A stretch of 64,000 bases of DNA from Ruegeria denitrificans (lineage in GTDB: Bacteria > Pseudomonadota > Alphaproteobacteria > Rhodobacterales > Rhodobacteraceae): contig NZ_CYUD01000001.1 of the NCBI RefSeq assembly GCF_001458295.1, positions 434,001-498,000 on the forward strand. Direction: 5' to 3'. Below, one piece after another: positions 15,316-20,113 of this stretch. The notes under the pieces were generated by a model, which searched no databases, had not been told where the DNA came from, and saw nothing but the letters and a program-made list of their open reading frames with translations. The stretch's first letter is position 1. Every line of letters begins with the position of its first letter. The position numbers were made by a program, and so were the translations under genes.

Positions 15316-17712
15316 ATGAGCAGTTTCGACGAAATGGACGCCTTTGACGGCGCATCGCTTTCGGCACGCGCGATGGCAGCGCGGCCCGCACCTTATCTGG
15401 ATGAGTTGAACCCGGCGCAACGCGAAGCAGTTGAGCGGCTGGACGGCCCGGTTTTGATGCTGGCCGGGGCGGGGACGGGTAAAACCAAGGCCCTGACCGC
15501 GCGTATTGCCCACTTGCTTAGCACGGCGCGGGCGCGACCGAATGAGATTCTGTCTGTGACGTTCACCAACAAAGCTGCACGCGAAATGAAAGACCGGGTG
15601 GGCCGCCTGCTGGGCCAGCCCGCCGAGGGAATGCCGTGGCTGGGCACCTTCCATTCTATCTGCGTCAAGCTGCTACGCCGTCATGCTGAGCTTGCCGGTC
15701 TGAAATCGAATTTCACCATCCTGGATACGGACGATCAGTTGCGCTTGCTGAAGCAATTGATCCAGGCCGCGAATATCGACGATAAACGCTGGCCTGCAAG
15801 AATGCTGGCCGGAATCATCGACGACTGGAAGAACCGGGCGCTGACGCCGGACAAGGTGCCTGCAGCGGATGCCGGGGCCTATAACAACAAGGGCATCGAA
15901 CTTTACGCCCAGTACCAAATCCGCCTGCGCGAGCTGAACGCGGTGGATTTCGGTGACCTGCTGCTGCACATTGTTACGATCTTCCAAACGCATCAGGATG
16001 TGCTGGAGCAATACCAACGCTGGTTCCGCTATATTCTGGTGGACGAGTATCAAGATACCAACGTCGCCCAATATCTATGGCTGCGTTTGCTGGCCGGAGC
16101 ACATAAGAACATCTGCTGCGTCGGTGACGATGACCAGTCAATCTATGGCTGGAGAGGGGCTGAAGTGGGCAATATTCTGCGGTTCGAAAAAGACTTTCCC
16201 GGTGCCTACGTGGTGCGGCTGGAACAGAATTATCGCTCGACCCCGCATATTCTGGCGGCAGCGTCCAACGTGATCCGAGGTAACGAAAACCGGTTGGGTA
16301 AAGAACTTTGGACCGACGCGGAAGAAGGTGAAAAAGTCCGTCTGATCGGCCATTGGGATGGCGAGGAAGAGGCTCGCTGGATCGGTGAAGAGATTGACGC
16401 GATGCAAGGTGGGACGCGGGGGGCGCGGCCCTTCAATCTGGATGAGATTGCCATTCTGGTCCGGGCCTCGCATCAGATGCGCGCGTTCGAAGATAGGTTC
16501 TTGACCATCGGCCTGCCTTACAAAGTGATTGGTGGCCCACGTTTCTATGAGCGGATGGAGATCCGCGATGCCATGGCCTATTTCCGGTTGGTGGTCAGCC
16601 CCGGCGATGATCTGGCGTTCGAGCGGATCGTGAACACTCCCAAACGTGGCCTTGGAGACAAGGCACAGCAGACGATTCAGGCGACGGCGCGCGAAAACGG
16701 CGTATCTCTGGTCGATGGCGCGCGGATCGCAGTCGACAACGGATTGATCAAGGGCAAAGGCGGCAACGCACTGCGCGAGTTGATCGACGGGTTGGCGCGG
16801 TGGAATGCGATGACTCGCGGGCCGCGAATTGAGGTCGACGACGATTCTGTCATTGACGACGGCAGAGCGCCTATGCGGTTCGGTGAGCCGGAGGTGTCGC
16901 ATATCGAACTGGCCCAGATCATATTGGATGAATCTGGCTATACCGCCCATTGGCAGAACGAAAAATCGCCCGAAGCACCCGGACGGCTGGAGAACCTGAA
17001 GGAACTCGTCAACCAGTTGGACAATTTCGAGAATCTGCAGGGGTTTCTGGAACACGTCAGCTTGGTCATGGACAATGAGCAAGAGGGTGACGGGGCCAAA
17101 GTCTCGATCATGACCTTGCACGCGGCCAAGGGGCTGGAGTTTCCCGCCGTCTTCCTACCGGGTTGGGAGGACGGGCTGTTCCCTTCGCAACGGTCGATGG
17201 ACGAATCCGGCCTTAAGGGTCTCGAGGAAGAACGACGGCTAGCCTATGTGGGCATCACCCGCGCGGAGGAAGTCTGTACGATATCTTTCGCTGCCAACCG
17301 GCGCGTGTTCGGTCAGTGGAAGAACGCGATGCCGTCGCGGTTTATCGACGAACTGCCCGAAGATCACGTTGAAGTGCTGACTCCTCCGGGTCTTTATGGC
17401 GGGAGTCAACCGGCGGCGGGGATTGAAACCCGCGCGGCTGAGGCGAATGTCTACAACTCTCCGGGTTGGAAGCGGATGCAGGCGCGGCAAGGGCAGTATG
17501 GAATGTCTCAGCCTCGCGAAACCCGAAATACGGTGATCGACGCAACGGCCGTCGCCAGCTTTACCCTTGGTGAGCGCGTTTTCCATCAGAAGTTCGGCTA
17601 TGGCGCGGTGGTCGGTATCGAAGGCGACAAAGTCGAGGTGGACTTTGACAAGGCGGGCACCAAAAAGGTGGTGTCGCGTTTCCTGTCAACCAAGGACGAC
17701 GTGCCGTTCTAA
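15316..17712 (+). CDS. uvrD: ATP-dependent 3'-5' DNA helicase, UvrD/PcrA type
   Basis: A 798-residue superfamily 1A helicase acting in nucleotide excision and mismatch repair and in clearing replication blocks. Visible motifs are LNPAQREAVE (Q motif), Walker A AGAGTGKT near 50-57, VTFTNKAAREM (Ia), VDEYQDTN (II), DDDQSIYGWRGA (III), QNYRSTPHIL (IV), MTLHAAKGLEFPAV (V) and EERRLAYVGITRA (VI). The C-terminal FGYGAVVGIEGDKVEVDF region is the Tudor-like RNA polymerase-binding domain of PcrA/UvrD. It stands alone and its stop is five bases from the convergent DUF1330 gene. Confidence 0.95.
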   Translation: MSSFDEMDAFDGASLSARAMAARPAPYLDELNPAQREAVERLDGPVLMLAGAGTGKTKALTARIAHLLSTARARPNEILSVTFTNKAAREMKDRVGRLLGQPAEGMPWLGTFHSICVKLLRRHAELAGLKSNFTILDTDDQLRLLKQLIQAANIDDKRWPARMLAGIIDDWKNRALTPDKVPAADAGAYNNKGIELYAQYQIRLRELNAVDFGDLLLHIVTIFQTHQDVLEQYQRWFRYILVDEYQDTNVAQYLWLRLLAGAHKNICCVGDDDQSIYGWRGAEVGNILRFEKDFPGAYVVRLEQNYRSTPHILAAASNVIRGNENRLGKELWTDAEEGEKVRLIGHWDGEEEARWIGEEIDAMQGGTRGARPFNLDEIAILVRASHQMRAFEDRFLTIGLPYKVIGGPRFYERMEIRDAMAYFRLVVSPGDDLAFERIVNTPKRGLGDKAQQTIQATARENGVSLVDGARIAVDNGLIKGKGGNALRELIDGLARWNAMTRGPRIEVDDDSVIDDGRAPMRFGEPEVSHIELAQIILDESGYTAHWQNEKSPEAPGRLENLKELVNQLDNFENLQGFLEHVSLVMDNEQEGDGAKVSIMTLHAAKGLEFPAVFLPGWEDGLFPSQRSMDESGLKGLEEERRLAYVGITRAEEVCTISFAANRRVFGQWKNAMPSRFIDELPEDHVEVLTPPGLYGGSQPAAGIETRAAEANVYNSPGWKRMQARQGQYGMSQPRETRNTVIDATAVASFTLGERVFHQKFGYGAVVGIEGDKVEVDFDKAGTKKVVSRFLSTKDDVPF

Positions 17713-17716
17713 ACGG

Positions 17717-18007
17717 CTACAGACCTTCGACCAGTACCATGTTTGCTGTGGCTGTCTGATGCCGGATCTTGGCGAGTTCTATATAGTCGGGGTCGTCTTT
17801 CCACGCCCTGGCGGCCTCAAGCGACGGAAACTCCATCAAGACAATGCCGTTTTCCGCCCAGGTGCCCTCGATCACCTCTACAGGCTTTGAGGATACAGTC
17901 AAAAGCCTGCCTCCATGGCGGTCAAAGATCGGCATGAAGCCTTCAAGATATTTCTGATAGCCATCCGGGTCGTGAATGGAGATCTGGGCGATGAAATAGG
18001 CGGCCAT
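17717..18007 (-). CDS. DUF1330 protein
   Basis: A 96-residue cytoplasmic protein of the DUF1330 family (ferredoxin-like dimeric alpha/beta-barrel fold). It has the family start AAYFIAQISIHDPDGYQKYL, the central GGRLLTVSSKPVEVIEG strand, and the FPSLEAARAWKDDPDY motif. The function of the family is unknown. The gene is downstream of the hairpin RNA array on the same strand, separated from its terminator by about 48 bases. Confidence 0.9.
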   Translation of the reverse strand: MAAYFIAQISIHDPDGYQKYLEGFMPIFDRHGGRLLTVSSKPVEVIEGTWAENGIVLMEFPSLEAARAWKDDPDYIELAKIRHQTATANMVLVEGL

Positions 18008-18055: not shown

Positions 18056-18102
18056 AAAAAGAAAAACGGCGGTTCCCAGGGAGGAGGAGGGGAACCGCCG
18101 TT
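18056..18102 (-). terminator. Terminator of the hairpin RNA array (hairpin H8)
   Basis: The last hairpin of the array on the minus strand has a stem of 11-13 perfect pairs (18065-18077 with 18090-18102). On the minus strand it runs straight into TTTTTCTTTTT, as a Rho-independent terminator does. The plus strand after this stem has a much weaker T-tract, which supports minus-strand transcription. Confidence 0.85.
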
Positions 18103-18142
18103 CTTTTCAACATCAAGGCAGGGAGGAGAATAGCCCCGATGT
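18065..18142 (-). ncRNA. CcsR-like small RNA, copy 4
   Basis: It contains two adjacent hairpins on the minus strand: H7 (18110-18142, loop TCTCCTCCC, stem with two G-U pairs that exist only in minus-strand RNA) and H8 (18065-18102, loop CCTCCTCCC), separated by about seven bases. The layout is that of the Rhodobacter CcsR ('cuckoo') RNAs, each of which has two stem-loops with a C/U-rich anti-Shine-Dalgarno loop. H8 doubles as the terminator. Confidence 0.8.
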
Positions 18143-18177
18143 ATCTGAACCCGGGTTTGATCCCGGTATGTGTAAGT

Positions 18178-18255
18178 CGCGGCGACACCAGGGAGGAGGA
18201 GAGGTGTCGCCGCGCGCTTTCAACATCAGGGCAGGGAGGAGGAGAGCCCCGATGT
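18178..18255 (-). ncRNA. CcsR-like small RNA, copy 3
   Basis: Two hairpins: H5 (18223-18255, stem ACATC-GGGC type with one G-U pair in the minus-strand RNA) and H6 (18178-18214, twelve perfect pairs). Both loops are CCTCCTCCC on the minus strand. The flanking spacers each hold a small CCGGG/CCCGG hairpin and probably separate the mature RNAs. Confidence 0.8.
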
Positions 18256-18290
18256 ATCTGCACCCGGGTTTGATCCCGGTATGTGTAAGT

Positions 18291-18366
18291 CGCGGCGACG
18301 TCAGGGAGGAGGACGACGCCGCCGCGCGCTTTCAACACCGGGAAAGGGAGGAGAAGTACCCGGTGT
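18291..18366 (-). ncRNA. CcsR-like small RNA, copy 2
   Basis: Two hairpins: H3 (18335-18366, eight perfect pairs, loop with TCTCCTCCC) and H4 (18291-18326, twelve pairs of which one is G-U only in minus-strand RNA, loop CCTCCTCCC). They are nine bases apart, like the other pairs of the array. Confidence 0.8.
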
Positions 18367-18400
18367 GTTAGTGTCCGGCATTCGGGGCCGGTATAAGGCG

Positions 18401-18470
18401 CGGCGATATCAGGGAGGAGGAGAGATATCACCGCTGAAATACAGGTCCTAAAGGGAGGAGGAAGGACCTG
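18401..18470 (-). ncRNA. CcsR-like small RNA, copy 1
   Basis: The first pair downstream of the DUF1127 stop: H1 (18442-18470, eight perfect pairs) and H2 (18401-18433, ten pairs, one of them G-U only in minus-strand RNA). Both loops carry CCTCCTCCC. H1 starts 23 bases after the DUF1127 stop codon, so the RNA is probably processed from a shared transcript, as described for CcsR1-4 in R. sphaeroides. Confidence 0.8.
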
Positions 18471-18493
18471 ATCTCGGTTATGTCGGTGCGCGC

Positions 18494-18718
18494 TTACTGC
18501 GCGACGTATTCTTCGGCCGCTTGCAATGCTACGCGGCGGATCATCGAACGGTGTAGGCCCAGATCGGCCAGCTCTCGGTTCGATAGGTCGGACAGTTCGT
18601 TCACAGTCCGGCGGTAGACCCGGTGCCGAATGAACCTGGTCTTTGCGGCTTCAATCAGCGATGCCAAGCCGATTTCCGGTGCGCCTTTGAGCGCGGTTCG
18701 ATGCGTTGCTACAGCCAT
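18494..18718 (-). CDS. DUF1127 protein, CcaF1-like
   Basis: A 74-residue basic protein with a C-terminal DUF1127 motif: VYRRTVNELSDLSNRELADLGLHRSMI. In R. sphaeroides the DUF1127 protein CcaF1, encoded directly upstream of CcsR1-4, binds RNA and aids maturation of those small RNAs. The same order here (DUF1127 gene, then paired anti-Shine-Dalgarno hairpins) supports the same role by inference. I chose the ATG at 18716-18718 because a GAG Shine-Dalgarno sits eight bases upstream; an ATG two codons earlier is also possible. No firm promoter was identified in the 150 bases upstream. Confidence 0.85.
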   Translation of the reverse strand: MAVATHRTALKGAPEIGLASLIEAAKTRFIRHRVYRRTVNELSDLSNRELADLGLHRSMIRRVALQAAEEYVAQ

Positions 18719-18724
18719 TTGCAT

Positions 18725-19243
18725 TACTCGATATGTTTAGTTGTTGCCGGGGTGTTCCAGCGTTTGGTTGAGGATGAAGATAGGCAAATGCTGCGCATGC
18801 ACAATAGGTGAAGTCATCAATGCTGCTATGCAGCAATTGCATAGATATCAATTCGGTAATGCGCTCGTGTATTTTGTAGGGGCCTTGAAGCAGAAGTTTC
18901 GAGGGTGTTTTGCCCGCTGCAATGATTTCTGCTTCCTTGAGCGCGTTGATCTTAAGTTGACTGTTCTGTCAATCAGTAGCGGCGCTGGCCCGGCATAAAG
19001 AGCGTTATGGAGTGCATGGGAAATCATGGGCTAAGCGTTGAGCTGTCTTCACGCATGGCATCGATTACCTTGGATGTAAGGTGATTCGCGCTGCGAAATC
19101 TGAGGAATTGGCTGCTAAGTCAGAAAATAATTCAATAATAGAGAAATATTTGGGAATTTATGGGGCACAGTAATTTTCAGATCACTTTTACTACATATAG
19201 GGTTATTAATTAGTTTAACGTCTATCAGTGGTGTAATGCGGGT
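18725..19243. other. Non-coding gap between the DUF1127 gene and the mraZ leader
   Basis: About 520 bases with no convincing gene on either strand. The left part must hold the promoter of the DUF1127-RNA unit (minus strand). The right part (about 19120-19240) is clearly AT-rich compared with its surroundings and probably contains upstream promoter elements for the division cluster. No repeat or hairpin stands out. Confidence 0.5.
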
Positions 19244-19285
19244 GGTTTTCAATCGGTTTTCAATCGGTTTTCATATGGGTATATT
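19244..19285 (+). promoter_or_regulatory. Triple 11-bp direct repeat and probable promoter upstream of mraZ
   Basis: GGTTTTCAATC is repeated at 19244 and 19255 and again at 19266 with its last bases changed. The period is about one helical turn, so a protein could bind on one face. A possible sigma-70 promoter overlaps it: TTTTCA (19257-19262), 17 bases, TATATT (19280-19285). MraZ is known in other bacteria to bind spaced short GG-containing repeats in its own promoter, so this is a candidate MraZ operator; that link is inference. Confidence 0.5.
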
Positions 19286-19327
19286 GCGATTCTTGATTTG
19301 AGATTTTGAATTTTCCTGTTGATTTCC

Positions 19328-19528
19328 ATGAATTCCCATGGCATCCCTTATTTATCCGATGAGGACGAGGCACATGGGGCACCAAACGACCCCGAAACAA
19401 TAAAACAGGTTTCATACAGGCATCTCGCTTTCATCAATCAAGAGATCCGGCGCGCGGGCGAGCAGACATCCCCCCAGGTGGCGCGCGCAGCTGGACATCC
19501 CGCACAGCGGGTCAATGCGGCGGGTTGA
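19328..19528 (+). CDS. Possible small protein in the mraZ leader
   Basis: An open frame of 66 codons (ATG 19328, TGA 19526-19528) lies wholly inside the leader. Its stop is in the left arm of the terminator. No Shine-Dalgarno is visible near the ATG or the TTG three codons upstream. The product (start MNSHGIPYLSDEDEAHG) is hydrophilic and not recognised. It could be a leader peptide or chance. Confidence 0.22.
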   Translation: MNSHGIPYLSDEDEAHGAPNDPETIKQVSYRHLAFINQEIRRAGEQTSPQVARAAGHPAQRVNAAG

Positions 19529-19558
19529 TCAGTGGCAGCAGATCAACCCGCCGTTTTT
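19519..19558 (+). terminator. Strong intrinsic terminator upstream of mraZ
   Basis: GGCGGGTTGATC (19519-19530) pairs perfectly with GATCAACCCGCC (19541-19552) over a ten-base loop and is followed by GTTTTT. It stands 50 bases before the mraZ start, so transcription of the whole cluster must read through it or start after it. Confidence 0.9.
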
Positions 19559-19609
19559 CATCTGGGGGTGTGAATTTTAAGTGGGGCGCAAGCGGAAGGG
19601 ACAGTCGTC

Positions 19610-20113
19610 TTGGCGCGCAGGTTTAGAGGTGAAAGCCACCACAAGGTGGATACGAAGGGCAGGGTGTCGATCCCGGCTTCGTTTCGCCGTGTGCTTGAGG
19701 CCTCGGACCCGAACTGGCAGCCCGGTGATACCCCCGAACTGGTGATCGTATACGGTGATCATCGCCGGAAATTCCTTGAATGTTATACGATGCAGGCGAT
19801 TGACGAGGTCGATCAAAAGATTGATGCGCTTCCGCGTGGCTCAATGCAGCGGAAGATGTTGCAGCGCATGTTCCACGGTCAATCCTTCCCCACCACAGTG
19901 GATGAAACCGGCCGTCTGGTTTTGCCAGCCAAGCTGCGTACCAAGATCGGATTGGAAAACGAGGCGTTCTTTATCGCCGCGGGTGATACGTTCCAGATCT
20001 GGAAACCCGAGACATATGAATCCGAAGAGTTGGCCTCCACCGAAGAATGGCTGGATGAACAGCCCGAGGATTTCGATCCTCTAGAGTTCCTAGATGGCGT
20101 CGGGGACGCGTAA
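19610..20113 (+). CDS. mraZ: Transcriptional regulator MraZ
   Basis: A 167-residue MraZ with two AbrB-like (SpoVT) DNA-binding repeats: [20 protein letters not shown] in the first, and [18 protein letters not shown] in the second. MraZ assembles into a ring and represses its own division operon in other bacteria. The predicted start is a TTG at 19610, giving the family N-terminus MARRFRGE; a GGAAGGG Shine-Dalgarno lies upstream. It is the first gene of the cluster, four bases ahead of rsmH. Confidence 0.95.

Follow-up and report, generated by a model that had tools for sequence, protein, structure and literature searches.

A CcsR-like array of paired anti-Shine-Dalgarno hairpins behind a DUF1127 gene in Ruegeria denitrificans, with a predicted LsrB/VtlR-type operator

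Which kind of RNA is encoded by a row of hairpins that follows a small DUF1127 gene in Ruegeria denitrificans, and which regulator might switch it on? The row lies on the minus strand of the window, i.e., the whole stretch of 64,000 nucleotides that was analysed. We report that the array, judged by its sequence, belongs to the known cuckoo RNA/CIN1 class as a new, CcsR-like member and that it is preceded by a conserved, predicted LysR operator. Array and operator together are likely to constitute a CcaF1-CcsR (CIN1)-type stress operon under the control of an LsrB/VtlR-type LysR regulator. While the array alone adds one further member to a widespread known class, the operator and its link to LsrB are the part for which we found no report in the literature searched.

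Gene, hairpins and spacers

The coordinates of the features are given in Table 1. The DUF1127 frame ends with TAA at 18494 as read directly on the minus strand, and an alternative start at 18724, giving 76 aa, is also open. The first stem starts 23 bases after this stop, as an earlier note on this DNA had described, and all eight minus-strand hairpins reported there were recovered, with CCTCCTCCC in six loops and TCTCCTCCC in the two at 18353 and 18128. In all eight hairpins the stems around CTCCTCCC reach 8 or more of 12 Watson-Crick pairs. The six occurrences of CCTCCTCCC compare with 0.60 expected in the window, and six were reached in none of 100 shuffles; CTCCTCCC occurs 64 times on both strands of the 4.62 Mb host genome, and its only eight occurrences in the window are the array loops.

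Table 1. Features predicted or read in the window around the hairpin array
Feature	Position	Strand	Basis
Predicted LysR (LsrB/VtlR-type) operator	18818-18841	-	fits TGCA-N6-GCAT-R-GC-N-G-N-ATTG; conserved before arrays across the family
Predicted core promoter, TTGTGC (18804-18799), 16 nt, TATCTT (18782-18777)	18777-18804	-	20 upstream regions aligned; geometry in 81 sites
DUF1127 protein gene, CcaF1-like, 74 aa	18494-18718	-	PF06568 E 1.3e-15; aligned with 19 family proteins
CcsR-like unit 1, two hairpins, loops at 18460 and 18419	18395-18475	-	Rfam CcsR1 45.0 bits, E 2.8e-9
Small hairpin (CCGGC/GCCGG), gap between units 1 and 2	18375-18391	-	gap fold -8.3 kcal/mol
CcsR-like unit 2, loops at 18353 (TCTCCTCCC) and 18311	18287-18360	-	Rfam CcsR1 34.9 bits, E 2.8e-6
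Small hairpin (CCGGG/CCCGG), gap between units 2 and 3	18261-18283	-	gap fold -10.3 kcal/mol
CcsR-like unit 3, loops at 18241 and 18198	18174-18258	-	Rfam CcsR1 45.6 bits, E 1.8e-9
Small hairpin (CCGGG/CCCGG), gap between units 3 and 4	18151-18166	-	gap fold -9.6 kcal/mol
CcsR-like unit 4, loops at 18128 (TCTCCTCCC) and 18086	18061-18145	-	Rfam CcsR1 31.4 bits, E 3e-5
Unit 4 last hairpin and T tract, putative intrinsic terminator of the operon	18056-18105	-	inverted repeat 18062-18077/18090-18105, read by eye

Over 96 nt, units 3 and 4 share 94% identity, and in the second hairpins of the four units the stems are kept with differing bases (pair table). Moreover, the three gaps between the units each fold one small third hairpin that the earlier note did not contain. 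The long gaps between motifs in relatives (129 distinct, 50-75 nt) have a mean folding z of -2.46 against mononucleotide shuffles; 64% of them fold better than 95% of their own shuffles, and five or more pairs form in 93%. The U-tract terminator proposed for the array end was also found by eye, the last hairpin running into a T-rich tract; the terminator scan of the window did not list this hairpin because its 12-base loop exceeds the 3-8 bases that the scan allows.

Placement within the cuckoo RNA/CIN1 class

The four-times-two layout that had been likened to CcsR is borne out by the Rfam CcsR1 model (RF02791), which each of the four units matches over all 83 positions. The covariance-model search proposed beforehand thus gave full-length matches for 4/4 units (E 1.8e-9 to 3e-5), with scores (31.4-45.6 bits) that stay below the CcsR1 gathering score of 65.3, the best unit having 45.6 bits. 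These matches came from an E-value search; at gathering cut-offs Rfam yields one tRNA alone in the window. Because of the scores below the gathering score we file the array as CcsR-like within the wider cuckoo class and not as a member of Rfam CcsR1. The ar14/NfeR1 model (RF02344) gave 46.1 and 41.2 bits on the array, below its gathering score of 58.8.

A small DUF1127 gene lies directly upstream on the same strand, and the hairpins carry the CCUCCUCCC-type loop of CIN1 (CTCCTCCC in 8/8, two with U before it instead of C). This layout of DUF1127 gene and array corresponds to the published CIN1, which is often found in Alphaproteobacteria according to the portion of PMC10253847 available to us. 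A pattern scan of 198 Rhodobacteraceae genomes, about one per genus, detected tandem CTCCTCCC pairs in 161; the reversed control pattern matched in 36/198, in part because the arrays themselves contain it. Among the 30 array loci listed, 27 have a DUF1127 frame, which in 26 stands before the first motif, and in 23 of these 27 the next motif follows 17-50 nt past the DUF1127 stop; the number of CTCCTCCC per locus ranges from 2 to 26. Since arrays are common in the family and the CIN1 layout is published, we regard the locus as a typical representative of a known class.

The closest known system is CcaF1-CcsR1-4 of Rhodobacter sphaeroides (RSP_6037 and RSs0680a-d; RF02791), where a DUF1127 gene is likewise followed by four two-hairpin RNAs with CCUCCUCCC loops and a terminator at the end. 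The comparison was made through the Rfam model and not the R. sphaeroides sequence, and it differs in that the window units score below the CcsR1 gathering cut-off, perhaps in the small spacer hairpins between the window units, and in the predicted LysR operator, of which the available portions of the R. sphaeroides literature make no mention. NfeR1/ar14 cuckoo sRNAs of Rhizobiales (RF02344) share the anti-Shine-Dalgarno loop and, as far as the accessible text of PMC10746234 goes, an LsrB site upstream of the promoter; there one RNA has three hairpins, whereas the window has two-hairpin units.

The host has nine DUF1127 matches in all, eight over the cut-off; the other DUF1127 genes are without a neighbouring array, their 3-kb stretches (L002-L009) holding a single CTCCTCC and no cluster. 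One relative (L017) has 26 CTCCTCCC, largely in near-identical three-hairpin repeats with one DUF1127 gene in front, and tandem duplication seems to expand arrays, given the near identity of these repeats. Separately, 46 of 82 IMG/VR stretches (L040-L121) carry three or more strongly paired motif hairpins, for the most part spaced by about 35 and 40 nt, and DUF1127 is present in 2/82 of these viral-contig stretches, a few of which resemble tandem repeats. Such stretches may carry ar14-like RNAs that lie within or next to proviruses, in host flanks or at an attachment site.

Conserved promoter block, operator and LsrB-like regulator

An alignment of 20 upstream regions shows a block of about 60 nt, composed of ATGCA-N6-GCATrGCaGCATTG, 12-13 nt, TTGTGCAnnnGCAGCA and a TATnTT/CATnTT box. 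In the window TTGTGC-N16-TATCTT precedes the DUF1127 gene and is conserved in relatives; this putative promoter may be used by RpoHI/RpoHII or by another sigma factor. A promoter pattern containing neither array nor protein gave at least 117 stretches in a scan of the genome collection, with 80 loci listed. Among the matches listed, 74/81 sites precede a DUF1127 gene, 73/81 at least two CTCCTCCC and 68/81 both features, and the two sites with neither are at most 55 nt from the locus end. Nearly all loci among the matches listed are labelled Rhodobacterales or its genera; L179 and L252 are labelled merely Pseudomonadota and Alphaproteobacteria. In six loci (L186, L208, L234, L247, L253 and L205) the promoter is directly followed by the motif with no DUF1127 gene between, L205 having two motif-preceding promoters in succession.

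The operator, allowing two mismatches, lies upstream in sense orientation in 26 of the 30 array-picked loci listed, and was seen there in 0/30 antisense and 0/29 downstream; 19 of the 30 had helped define it, and it is present in 8 of the other 11. As to the four loci without it, L015 and L021 have no DUF1127 gene, L017 is cut by the locus end and L012 has a weak DUF1127 match. In the host genome two sites fit without mismatch, the window site being one. The pattern was written to fit both, and is therefore tested by other genomes only. In 149 family genomes the 24-bp operator occurs at 68 sites in 63 genomes and its reversed control at none; an exact copy is absent from 86/149, which we count against control by LsrB. 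With respect to context, 49 of the 66 sites read precede DUF1127 and array, four an array only and four a DUF1127 gene only; five are behind an lsrB-like gene, all five being followed by a SorY-like sRNA, and a stricter array count left these numbers unchanged. The operator is thus near-exclusive (62/66 sites) to the DUF1127-CcsR operon, stand-alone arrays or DUF1127 genes, and the SorX/SorY-like sRNA behind lsrB. Judged by eye, the other four comprise L334 and L352, preceding small basic frames (that of L352 resembles a diverged DUF1127), L366, where the operator-like site precedes a lipoyl-synthase-like frame with the ribosome-binding site GGGAGGAG, and L315, where the site seems to be within a coding stretch.

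The operator contains TGCA-N6-GCAT near the promoter (within 18841-18818). In the part of PMC10746234 that we could consult, LsrB is an indispensable activator of the cuckoo-type sRNA NfeR1 and its site in the Sinorhizobium NfeR1 promoter is TGCA-N6-GCAT at -72 to -60; the window operator would be at about -71 to -58, an estimate that assumes a transcription start 7 nt past the -10 box. The reverse complement of the window site also matches 13/15 positions of the VtlR motif CAATGCAGCCATGCA, as given in the available section of PMC12595884.

To find the regulator gene, an LsrB alignment was built from eight other alphaproteobacterial genomes, using the LysR frames that follow trxB there; one of these proteins matches PDB 9HH1 at 4.3e-94, the A. 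tumefaciens LsrB according to the text at hand from PMC11975290. At E 1e-70 the alignment detects a single LsrB-like gene in each of 144/149 family genomes. In the host, the sole match at this threshold is C4:296364-297272 (302 aa), which qualifies as the orthologue; its product matches PDB 9HH1 at 1.5e-68, the next LysR chain being at 7.1e-26. Looking for the gene next to trxB worked in other Alphaproteobacteria and failed in the host, where lsrB is not beside trxB, unlike in Rhizobiales, and the trxB neighbour is by eye an Lrp/AsnC-type frame. The host protein has a single cysteine, Cys191, and hence is without the C144/C273 pair of Agrobacterium, so that redox sensing by such a pair is unsupported. 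At 1e-70 an LsrB match is missing from five of the 149 genomes; two of these five, G114 (100% complete) and G028 (86%), have nevertheless kept the operator. Considering the absent cysteine pair, the different location of trxB and these two genomes, the protein may respond to a different signal, and a regulator other than LsrB may act.

The second perfect host operator starts three bases past the lsrB stop; behind it come a promoter-like stretch and an sRNA (G000:C4 about 297276-297441; L308 3776-3941). This sRNA passes the SorX (RF02784) cut-off with 48.4 vs 46.6, and matches SorY (RF02651) at E 2e-9 with 57.5 vs a cut-off of 111, i.e., below it; it is a separate gene on another contig (C4) than the array. 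Its core TCCCTGTTGGACT is present in 12/13 lsrB loci (the 12 top-scoring loci of the family search and the host), namely the host and 11/12 family loci (L296-L307).

Since the operator precedes arrays and DUF1127 genes, and since the host LsrB-like gene has the same operator together with an sRNA, LsrB probably controls CcsR-type RNAs in Rhodobacteraceae. Control of such RNAs by LsrB/VtlR in Rhodobacter or its relatives is unreported in the literature searched, a coverage that leaves the founding CcsR work outside.

The strongest competitor of LsrB control, which we rate as unlikely though worth weighing, is a CcaF1-CcsR-like operon driven by RpoH-type sigma factors only, with the conserved block being the site of another LysR protein (OxyR, GcvA-like) or an extended promoter. 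Sites of the T-N11-A type are common to many LysR proteins. Furthermore, the R. sphaeroides operon has been published as RpoHI/RpoHII-controlled, and LysR is unmentioned in the portions available, which counts against LsrB. This explanation is opposed by the presence of the same 24-bp element immediately behind the lsrB-like gene, both in the host and in five further genomes, by the enrichment of TGCA-N6-GCAT within 300 nt past the lsrB stop (7/13 loci vs 14/1340 random 300-nt windows), and by the fit of the element to the LsrB site before NfeR1 at a similar estimated distance from the transcription start.

The VtlR/LsrB regulon of Agrobacterium and Brucella offers a parallel to the predicted control, given that there one LysR regulator serves both AbcR sRNAs and DUF1127 genes, and in Brucella an sRNA gene lies near the regulator gene (consulted parts of PMC12595884 and PMC7486931). 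In these accounts the DUF1127 genes and sRNAs are separate targets, whereas the window combines them in one array and belongs to another bacterial order; the host lsrB also differs by the absence of the cysteine pair and of the trxB linkage, a trait stated for Rhizobiales only. We lean, with some reserve, towards LsrB/VtlR being a near-universal Rhodobacteraceae regulator beyond Rhizobiales, and LsrB, DUF1127 proteins and anti-Shine-Dalgarno sRNAs forming one ancient alphaproteobacterial circuit. If true, the circuit unites CcsR and SorX/SorY of R. sphaeroides, NfeR1/AbcR of rhizobia and the VtlR-DUF1127 link. If LsrB control holds, two bacterial orders share the transcriptional input of their anti-Shine-Dalgarno RNAs. 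The description of LsrB as unique to Rhizobiales, drawn from a few representatives in the part of PMC11975290 available, would then need revision.

Possible mode of action and the RNA strand

Starting from what can be read in the DNA (gene, hairpins, strand, conserved operator and promoter, LsrB-like gene), we infer the following course from operator binding to base pairing. An LsrB/VtlR-type regulator would bind the predicted operator, and RNA polymerase, with a stress sigma factor, would start at the promoter just downstream, giving one transcript that carries both the frame of the small RNA-binding DUF1127 protein and the four RNAs of two hairpins each. This transcript would be cut between the units, probably by RNase E at A/U-rich linkers beside the spacer hairpins, and the DUF1127 protein may aid the processing into four redundant anti-Shine-Dalgarno sRNAs. 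Their CUCCUCCC loops could pair with Shine-Dalgarno sequences and lower the translation of selected mRNAs with GGGAGGAG-like ribosome-binding sites. The stress response, processing, Hfq binding and targets are assumed here by analogy with R. sphaeroides.

The earlier suggestion to predict mRNAs from ribosome-binding sites that pair with the loop gave 27 candidates in a list that is unspecific. Outside the array, 27/56 GGGAGGAG sites of the host genome are followed at a distance of 3-13 nt by the potential start of a frame with 60 aa or more, compared with 0/6 for the reversed motif in the same stretches and 941/6600 random positions; as GGGAGGAG before starts only shows a good Shine-Dalgarno sequence, these 27 are candidates and not targets. 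NCBIfam, applied to nine of the 27 (fragments only), matched seven and left two without a match. The matches are molybdenum-hydroxylase type dehydrogenase subunits (twice), an acetate-CoA ligase, a TRAP binding protein, two sugar ABC binding proteins and a GbdR-like regulator, the TRAP protein alone passing a curated cut-off (NF037995).

That the hairpins act in cis instead, as a long structured 3' UTR which protects the DUF1127 mRNA or times its decay with no trans-acting sRNAs, appears improbable to us. The hairpins do stand directly past the stop codon, and stable stems and spacer hairpins would suit such a function; yet the loop is fixed while the stems vary, as for a pairing seed, and promoter and array occur without a detected DUF1127 gene in 5/81 sites among the matches listed (L186, L208, L234, L247 and L253), as do operator and array in 4/66 sites. 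In addition, flhR mRNA is a target of the R. sphaeroides CcsR RNAs according to the portion of PMC8307010 at hand.

The minus strand as the RNA strand, as the earlier note had it, agrees with a wobble-pair test in relatives. Among 668 distinct clustered motifs (110 loci), 596 have stems with at least 8/12 Watson-Crick pairs, and on the C-loop strand these strong stems have 427 G-U vs 91 A-C; at random positions strong stems numbered 436/4040, with 192 G-U vs 226 A-C. This excess of G-U over A-C relative to the control argues that selection acted on RNA of the C-loop strand. A plus-strand transcript would present GGGAGGAG in its loops and might act as a CsrB-like sponge for CsrA; we reject this practically negligible reading because CsrA (PF02599) was not found in the host genome at E 1e-3 (14 control genomes; found in E. 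coli, B. subtilis and T. maritima), the wobble pairs favour the opposite strand, and the DUF1127 gene, promoter block and T tract are all on the minus strand.

Finally, the minus-strand operon is flanked by genes that we take, from their sequence, to be uvrD (15316-17712) and mraZ (19610-20113), and a small DUF1330 gene (17717-18007) lies between uvrD and the array. The mraZ leader (window 19200-19610) adjoins the operon, and the corresponding place in R. sphaeroides is that of the sRNA UpsM, whose former name RSs0682, in the source text available, is close in number to RSs0680a-d.
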